Source: Tetrahymena thermophila SB210 (lineage: Eukaryota; Ciliophora; Oligohymenophorea; Hymenostomatida; Tetrahymenidae). From it: a stretch of 64,000 nt of DNA. The DNA is taken from the NCBI RefSeq assembly GCF_000189635.1, contig NW_002476212.1, positions 62,001-126,000 of the forward strand, read 5' to 3'. The notes below the pieces were generated by a model. The model had not been told where the DNA came from and did not search any database. It saw only the letters and a list, made by a program, of their open reading frames with translations. The position numbers were made by a program, and so were the translations under genes. Positions 38,431 through 40,179 of the stretch are shown here, in pieces. The first letter of the stretch is position 1, and each line of letters begins with the position of its first letter.

Positions 38431-40179
38431 ATGGAAAAAGAAAGAATTGTACCTGAAGGAGCTCCTGATTCTTGTCCAGGAGTCAAATCTCAATTAGCAG
38501 GAAAGGTAGAGCCTTGCTCTGGATGCCCACATTAACCCAACTGTGCTTTAGGAAATCCAAACTTAGATGGTAGAATCATTCCTGAAGAAGCACCATCTTA
38601 ATGTCCAGGCACTTAATCTAACTTAGCTGGCCATACAGTAGTATGTTCAGGATGCCCCCATTAACCAAACTGTGCTTCAAAAGCTTTAAATGTCCATTAC
38701 AAATTAGTTCCTGATAATGCTCCAACTTAATGTCCTGGTACTCTTTCTCAAGATGCAGGAAAAGTAAACTCTTGTTCAGGATGCCCTAATTAATAAAAAT
38801 GTAATAGTGGATAATCAAATACTATTCAAGAGCATAAGAAGTTAGTTCCAGATAATGCACCATAAAACTGTCCTGGAGTTGATTCATAAAATGCAGGAAA
38901 AACTGAAGTTTGTGTATCTTGCCCTCATTAACCTAACTGCGCTTTAGGCAAACTTGGAGTTCATGGCAAAGTTGTTCCTGTTGATGCTCCTGAATAATGC
39001 CCTGGAACATAAGCCTAAAATGCAGGTAAAACACCAGTTTGCTCAGGATGTCCTCATCAACCTGATTGTGCTGCTGGTAAGTAAGCAAATATCACTGCTG
39101 ATAAGAAAATCGTCCCAGTTAATGCTAATACTGGTTGTGTAGGAACTCAGTCATAATAAGCAGGTACTGCTTCTTCATGTGCAGGCTGTCCTAATAAAGC
39201 TAAATGTTCTAGTTAAAATACAGAAGAAAATAAAGTTGTACCAGACAATGCAAACGAAGGTTGTCCTGGAACGTAAAATAAAGAAGCAGGTAAAATGTCT
39301 GCTTGCTAAGGATGCCCCAACCAGCAAATTTGTGCTTCTGGAAAAGCAAACGAACCTGATCCAGCTCTTAAAGACGTAGAAAGAAGAATGAAATTAGTCA
39401 AGCACAAAATTCTAGTTCTTTCAGGTAAAGGTGGTGTTGGTAAGAGTACAGTTTCCTCTTAACTAGCTTTCTAATTAGCAAATCTTGGTTATGAAGTTGG
39501 CTTGTTAGATATTGATATTTGTGGTCCTTCAATTCCTAGAATGTTGGGATTACTTGATCACGAAGTTCATAATAGTGCTGATGGTTGGAGTCCTGTTTAT
39601 GTAGAAGATAATTTAGGTGTTATGTCCATAGGATTTTTATTAGGCAATCAAGATGATGCAGTTGTTTGGAGAGGTCCTCGTAAGAATGGTTTGATTAAAC
39701 AATTTTTGACAGATGTTAATTGGGGAGAATTGGATTATCTTATTATCGATACTCCTCCTGGAACTTCTGATGAACACATCAGCTGTGTCTAATACTTGTA
39801 ACCTGGTGAAGGAGATGGTGCTATTGTAGTTACCACTCCTTAAGAAGTTAGTCTTTAAGATGTCAGAAAAGAATTGAGTTTCTGTTAAAAGACTAAAACA
39901 AATATACTCGGTGTTGTTGAAAACATGAGTGGTTTCATTTGTCCTGGCTGCAAGTGCGAAAGTCAGATTTTCCCTCCTGTAACTGGTGGTGCTGCTAAAA
40001 TGTGCTAAGATTATAAGATTGATCTCTTAGGTAAAGTACCTCTCGAACCTAAGGTCTTAATCTGCACAGAAAAGGGTAAATCAATTGTCAAAGAGCATCC
40101 AGATTCTGTAGCAGCTAAGGTCTACTAACATATTGCAGAAAGAGTAACTCAAACACTAAAAGTAGAATTACCAAAGTGA
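38431..40179 (+). CDS. NBP35: Nbp35-type cytosolic Fe-S scaffold ATPase with seven N-terminal Fe-S motifs
   Basis: P-loop ATPase of the Mrp/NUBP family that assembles and hands on [4Fe-4S] clusters to cytosolic and nuclear proteins. A single exon of 582 residues. Residues about 330-580 are a full ATPase domain: [20 protein letters not shown] (Walker A about 332-339), [49 protein letters not shown] with the bridging CPxC at Cys504 and Cys507, and [10 protein letters not shown]. Ordinary Nbp35 has one N-terminal C-x13-C-x2-C-x5-C motif. Here residues 7-304 carry seven tandem copies of about 43 residues, each of the form VPxxAPxxCPGTxSQxAGKxxxC. All 28 cysteines are present with identical spacing. 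The last copy, next to the ATPase domain, matches the canonical position. Assignment to Nbp35 over Cfd1 rests on that N-terminal motif. Confidence 0.96.
38449..39342 (+). repeat. Seven tandem ~129-bp coding repeats (C-x13-C-x2-C-x5-C)
   Basis: Each unit encodes VP-x(3-4)-xC(P/V)GTxSQxAG, then a [14 protein letters not shown] block and a short linker. The cysteine spacing is 13, 2 and 5 in every unit. The linkers vary slightly in length (about 8-13 residues). Nucleotide identity between copies looks only moderate, so the expansion is not very recent. Confidence 0.95.

Follow-up and report, generated by a model that had tools for sequence, protein, structure and literature searches.

An Nbp35-type gene of Tetrahymena thermophila with seven N-terminal four-cysteine motifs ahead of a single NUBP ATPase domain

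A complete Nbp35/NUBP1-type gene lies on the forward strand of the window, by which we mean the whole 64-kb stretch of DNA that was analysed, and its protein begins with an array of seven four-cysteine units followed by one ATPase domain. The frame starts at its first in-frame ATG (38431) and closes with a TGA that ends at 40179; upstream of the ATG it stays open as far as a GTG at 38221. The ciliate code assumed for the gene in the first-pass annotation is supported by the frame itself, which is open over 582 residues under code 6 with TAA read as glutamine 29 times and TAG 0 times. The features are as follows.

38431..40179 (+), Nbp35/NUBP1-type gene, complete single frame, code 6, 582 aa, about 61.3 kDa
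38431..39333 (+), N-terminal array of seven four-cysteine units, aa 1-301
38473..38544 (+), unit 1 core, H type, motif start aa 15
38602..38673 (+), unit 2 core, H type, motif start aa 58
38731..38802 (+), unit 3 core, N type, motif start aa 101
38869..38940 (+), unit 4 core, H type, CVSC replacing CSGC, motif start aa 147
38998..39069 (+), unit 5 core, H type, motif start aa 190
39136..39207 (+), unit 6 core, N type, CVG replacing CPG, most diverged of the seven, motif start aa 236
39262..39333 (+), unit 7 core, N type, adjoining the ATPase, motif start aa 278
39397..40146 (+), NUBP/Mrp ATPase domain, PF10609, aa 323-572, 3.7e-100
39424..39450 (+), P-loop GKGGVGKST, aa 332-340
39940..39951 (+), CPxC motif CPGC, where the bridging cluster is expected, aa 504-507, with KCESQIF directly after it

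The neighbouring gene downstream, also on the forward strand (40949-42115, +), matches Elongator complex protein 2 (PDB 5m2n/4xfv, 1.1e-11). Elongator includes an Fe-S protein, Elp3 (PMC12674569), and in a eukaryotic genome the placement of an Elongator gene next to an Nbp35-type gene is probably a coincidence. The upstream frame (35894-37219, +) has a cysteine-bearing start (CGWCNDKKRFIEGC) followed by a long lysine-rich low-complexity part, and matches no Pfam family at 0.001. A tRNA-Arg with anticodon CCG lies at 49965-50037 (-).

A regular expression for C-x13-C-x2-C-x5-C finds exactly seven matches in the protein, and these take up 28 of the 28 cysteines in residues 1-301, so that the array contains no extra cysteine. 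The core is 24 residues long in all seven units, with linkers that vary from 18 to 22 residues (19, 19, 22, 19, 22 and 18 from the last Cys of one unit to the first Cys of the next). Invariant core columns are C, G, A, G, C, C, P and C, that is, the four cysteines together with G, A, G and P. In 20,000 shuffles of residues 1-301 the count of motifs never exceeded 2, a value reached in 4 of them. The earlier description of seven identically spaced copies with every cysteine intact thus holds. The units need not be equal, since unit 6, which has T for K in addition to CVG, and unit 4 with its CVSC both depart from the motif. No eighth motif occurs in the six frames of the 64-kb window under code 6 when motifs containing stops are excluded, and a sequence search of PDB chains with the unit alignment gave a best E of 1.1.

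The possibility that the array is a product of the gene model or the assembly, through introns or a misassembled tandem, is very improbable, and no sign in its favour was found. A codon score, trained on the gene's own ATPase part and applied in 90-nt windows from 38431, ranks frame 1 highest in every one of the 11 windows that cover the array (the final one shares 30 nt with the training part), and the 300-nt flanks on either side of the coding sequence score negative in all three frames. The coding sequence contains 0 intron-like GT-AG stretches (about 40-400 nt, AT of at least 78%) in a window whose GC content runs from 14 to 34% in 2-kb steps. In pairwise comparison over 38-residue stretches, identity between units is 37-66% for amino acids and 52-66% for DNA, and the longest exact direct repeat in the gene is 14 bp; together these make assembly collapse and assembly expansion both unlikely. 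Tandem Repeats Finder (TRF) at its lowest threshold reports no tandem array inside the gene and a short 11-bp repeat upstream of the ATG (38397-38418). At the DNA level the repeat has diverged too far to be recent, and a fresh DNA expansion or assembly stutter is an unlikely source of the array.

The C-terminal part is one complete NUBP ATPase, as had been proposed, with the PF10609 domain, P-loop and CPGC all intact behind the array. Its best solved chain is CFD1 (PDB 6g2g, 2.2e-79, query aa 321-552). The protein combines an Mrp/NUBP P-loop ATPase, the CPxC motif and the N-terminal CX13CX2CX5C, here seven times instead of once, which are the features of Nbp35/NUBP1. A Cfd1/NUBP2 protein is taken here to be a CPxC ATPase without the N-terminal motif, and seven motifs are present here; as read from PMC8007109, that motif is assigned to NUBP1/Nbp35 alone, and because PMC6006210 describes an N-terminal cluster in Cfd1 as well, absence of the motif is disputed as a mark of Cfd1. 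The DUF59 and DUF971 domains that surround the ATPase in HCF101 are both missing from the Pfam scan at E<=1, and scores remain below the NCBIfam cut-offs for MrpORP (328.3 of 450 bits) and ApbC (215.6 of 348 bits).

Searches of the genome (101.0 Mb in 445 contigs) gave one further member of the family. PF10609 and the ATPase protein together recover the array gene and one more locus, on contig C15, which carries PF06155 (2.5e-20) and a PF01883 match below the cut-off (0.0064), and which by this domain content is HCF101. The paralogue (C15:125200-129200) is apparently split by introns and has CNCALC in its DUF971 part, a sequence that fits the bacterial DUF971 form C[A,R,N,H]CA[A,L]C given in PMC7980591. 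Since the other PF10609 gene is HCF101, neither Cfd1 nor Ind1 was found, nor was a second Nbp35; the searches ran exon by exon and scored the best candidates, so that the absence of Cfd1 and Ind1 is not proof. According to PMC7980591, Cfd1 is absent from SAR and T. thermophila has Nbp35 (XP_001033404) and mHCF101, with C-terminally tagged Nbp35 diffuse in the cytosol and HCF101 mitochondrial. The 321-aa array protein matches its own locus alone in the genome at E<=1 among the best candidates scored, a search by which single motifs elsewhere could be missed. Other components of the pathway are represented by a Dre2/CIAPIN1 gene (contig C332, ORF 1354-2403, -), pieces of a Nar1-like Fe-hydrogenase on C9, diflavin-reductase FAD domains at four places (C13 twice, C264 and C3) that are candidates for Tah18, and nine glutaredoxin matches that are candidates for Grx3. 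By eye the Dre2 homologue has C-x6-C-x2-C-x-C and C-x2-C-x7-C-x2-C once each; the first motif of human anamorsin is longer, CX8CX2CXC (PMC10108433). The idea that the array makes up for a missing electron donor was rejected because the Dre2 gene is present.

Two types of unit can be told apart. The residue that follows CP in CxxCP is H, H, N, H, H, N and N in units 1 to 7, and units 3, 6 and 7 separate from 1, 2, 4 and 5 in 84% of 500 neighbour-joining bootstraps, so by sequence the order is HHN-HHN-N. This arrangement suggests that a block was doubled ahead of the unit adjoining the ATPase, (HHN)(HHN)N. As a doubled block 1-2-3/4-5-6 predicts, unit 1 scores best with unit 4 and unit 2 with unit 5, and block 1-3 against block 4-6 scores 403 where four other three-unit block pairs tried gave 336-366. 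Against it, the best partner of unit 3 is unit 7, which is also a slightly better partner for unit 6 than unit 3 is, and units 4 and 5 are each other's best match. Among all 5040 orders, scores as high occur in 3.8% (three pairs) or 5.7% (all four shift-3 pairs), a marginal and post hoc result from a test chosen after the unit types had been seen. Unit 7 likely represents the ancestral single motif. It lies 25 residues, counted from its last Cys, before the reference stretch at the ATPase, close to what we take to be a spacing of 24 in yeast Nbp35, and it shares 13 of 24 positions with what we take to be the yeast Nbp35 motif, the most of any unit (10-12 for the others).

Preserved spacing had been offered as an argument for selection on each unit, and the comparison of dN/dS among units gives signs of such selection. 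Between units, pooled pS is 0.56 and pN 0.36, and pooled dN/dS is 0.47 (codon bootstrap 0.28-0.74; 0 of 2000 replicates at or above 1), values drawn from 21 non-independent unit pairs with high synonymous divergence (pair pS 0.36-0.73). Leaving out the cysteine columns raises dN/dS to 0.60 (bootstrap 0.37-0.92). Each unit against the other six gives 0.34-0.62, lowest for unit 7 and highest for units 6 and 3. If cysteines were kept no better than the mean majority identity of the other core positions (95/140), the probability of retaining 28 of 28 would be 1.9e-5. By these measures the units look to be under constraint.

How such an array might work can be approached from its single-motif relatives. 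That one motif per subunit is the norm, as had been assumed, agrees with PMC8007109, in which a single N-terminal CX13CX2CX5C is common to human NUBP1 and yeast Nbp35. According to the same source, the N-terminal motif of NUBP1 binds a tight [4Fe-4S] cluster and the CPxC pair holds a labile bridging one; in vitro, two [2Fe-2S] clusters from GLRX3 are reductively coupled on NUBP1. Without the N-terminal motif there was no conversion to [4Fe-4S] at CPxC in the GLRX3 transfer assay, and chemical reconstitution partly loaded that site (PMC8007109). For the N-terminal cluster, its authors put forward an electron relay that starts there, or else a structural role. The N-terminal NUBP1 cluster is built by the GLRX3/anamorsin hetero-tetramer (PMC10108433). 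Two points weigh against a landing or relay role. Yeast Tah18-Dre2 has been proposed to be dispensable for the C-terminal cluster (cited in PMC8007109). In plants, the NBP35 C14A variant, with a destabilised N-terminal cluster, still binds DRE2, which means that landing need not occur at the N-terminal site; the mutant has mild growth defects with near-normal growth, and its aconitase and aldehyde oxidase activities fall significantly while that of xanthine dehydrogenase does not (PMC5324674).

Our preferred reading, held with moderate confidence, is that the protein is the sole cytosolic Nbp35-type scaffold found and works as a Cfd1-less homodimer, with the seven-unit arm serving for multi-site landing and electron relay. 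The homodimeric state is taken from homologues. In such a dimer the ATPase core and the CPxC pair would assemble a transferable, labile [4Fe-4S] cluster, and the single N-terminal cluster domain would be multiplied to seven. Each unit would take up a stable [4Fe-4S] from two [2Fe-2S] of a Grx3-type glutaredoxin with electrons from Dre2, a loading step for which the in vitro precedent is the one unit of human NUBP1, and the arm would thereby speed engagement of Grx3 and Dre2 with the scaffold and completion of the CPxC cluster. Binding of a cluster by each unit, the type of cluster and its delivery path are carried over from the homologues, and we infer the relay or multi-site gain from seven units. 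The first-pass annotation's figure for a homodimer, fourteen peripheral clusters and the bridging one, is correct as an upper bound provided that every unit binds in the manner of NUBP1. A more specific version is possible and considerably more tentative, namely that every subunit has seven [4Fe-4S] clusters, that these come in two redox types arranged HHN-HHN-N, which would make fifteen clusters in a homodimer, and that the arms conduct electrons from Dre2 to the nascent CPxC cluster.

Other readings of the array assign the extra units a different task. They could store [4Fe-4S] clusters and, when these run short, give them up to clients or the CPxC site; the motif count would provide as many as 14 N-terminal sites in a homodimer, assuming that all of them bind. 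Lability would be expected of a store, however, whereas the homologous single cluster of human NUBP1 binds tightly, and roughly half of the 55Fe on yeast Nbp35 was retained for up to 3 h with chelator (PMC8007109), and we regard storage as unlikely. On the strength of the NUBP1 and NBP35 papers we prefer an arm for multi-site landing and relay to a store. Somewhat unlikely, and to be taken more seriously, is an arm that acts through avidity or spacing, in which a functional cluster is needed in the proximal N-type unit alone and the other units are folded, metal-bound beads (Fe-S or Zn) that would bind Dre2, Grx3, mitochondria or the cytoskeleton several-fold. The separation of H-type units 1, 2, 4 and 5 from N-type units 3, 6 and 7, the position of unit 7 next to the ATPase at about the spacing we assume for yeast Nbp35, and the variable linkers all suit such a design; the retention of 28 of 28 cysteines and their spacing does not, given that the family motif is a cluster ligand set (PMC8007109). 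Beads that bind only zinc were dropped as a separate reading, and kept within the avidity one, because the motif is a demonstrated cluster ligand set in NUBP1 (PMC8007109).

It is also conceivable that the units multiplied nearly neutrally, tolerated without functional gain and partly kept since misfolded cysteine-rich units would be harmful. The upper 97.5% bound of 0.92 on dN/dS outside the cysteine columns, with 0.9% of 2000 replicates at or above 1, two of the 21 pairs above 1 (units 2-3, 1.15; units 4-6, 1.18) and the marked divergence of unit 6 are all compatible with this account. We consider it improbable nonetheless, as the DNA is highly diverged and yet the frame, the 28 cysteines and the 24-residue cores are intact in seven of seven units.

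Set beside known systems, the seven-motif array is a variant of Nbp35 and not a new system. It shares with Nbp35/NUBP1 the N-terminal CX13CX2CX5C, the Mrp/NUBP P-loop ATPase and the CPxC pair, and differs in having seven motifs of two types where those proteins have one, with a 301-aa array longer than the 250-aa PF10609 domain. Arabidopsis NBP35 is likewise a dimer with DRE2 as partner in a Cfd1-less organism, with one N-terminal cluster described (PMC5324674). Cfd1/NUBP2 (6g2g) aligns with the ATPase alone (query 321-552), the window protein having the N-terminal array in addition, and the HCF101 on C15 shares PF10609 and has PF06155/DUF971 and a weak DUF59-like match with no match to the array. 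As a wire, the arm may be likened by description to a methanogen polyferredoxin, subunit F of formylmethanofuran dehydrogenase, which holds several [4Fe-4S] clusters per chain (six per monomer), is proposed to transfer electrons to an enzyme and is not part of a cluster-assembly ATPase (PMC11656701).

A viral source of the array was rejected, as viral contigs gave 64 pattern matches of which none was confirmed and 0 matches to the tandem pattern; on the window itself this tandem-motif pattern recovered 5 of 6 neighbouring unit pairs (38524, 38653, 38782, 38920, 39187). Among prokaryotes, the unit alignment has weak matches in 6 of 395 genomes of one phylum (E 0.002-0.009), and in the one of these six inspected by eye no Mrp-like frame was seen; three further genomes gave six weaker matches (E 0.018-0.24). 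No published description of repeated motifs in Nbp35 was found in the open-licence PMC literature, and 'repeat' and 'tandem' occur 0 times in PMC7980591. The earlier remark that no protein with this layout has been described agrees with that literature, covered mostly at listing level; the layout may well appear uncommented in T. thermophila records.

If each copy binds a cluster, two such proteins together could have room for many more Fe-S clusters than usual. For the Nbp35 N-terminal cluster, either a structural or an electron-transfer role has been suggested (PMC8007109), and it is not needed for DRE2 binding (PMC5324674); a natural protein with seven copies offers a direct dose series for that role, in an organism for which a strain with C-terminally tagged Nbp35 has already been published (PMC7980591). 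A poly-cluster scaffold, if true, would be this lineage's own way of working without Cfd1.
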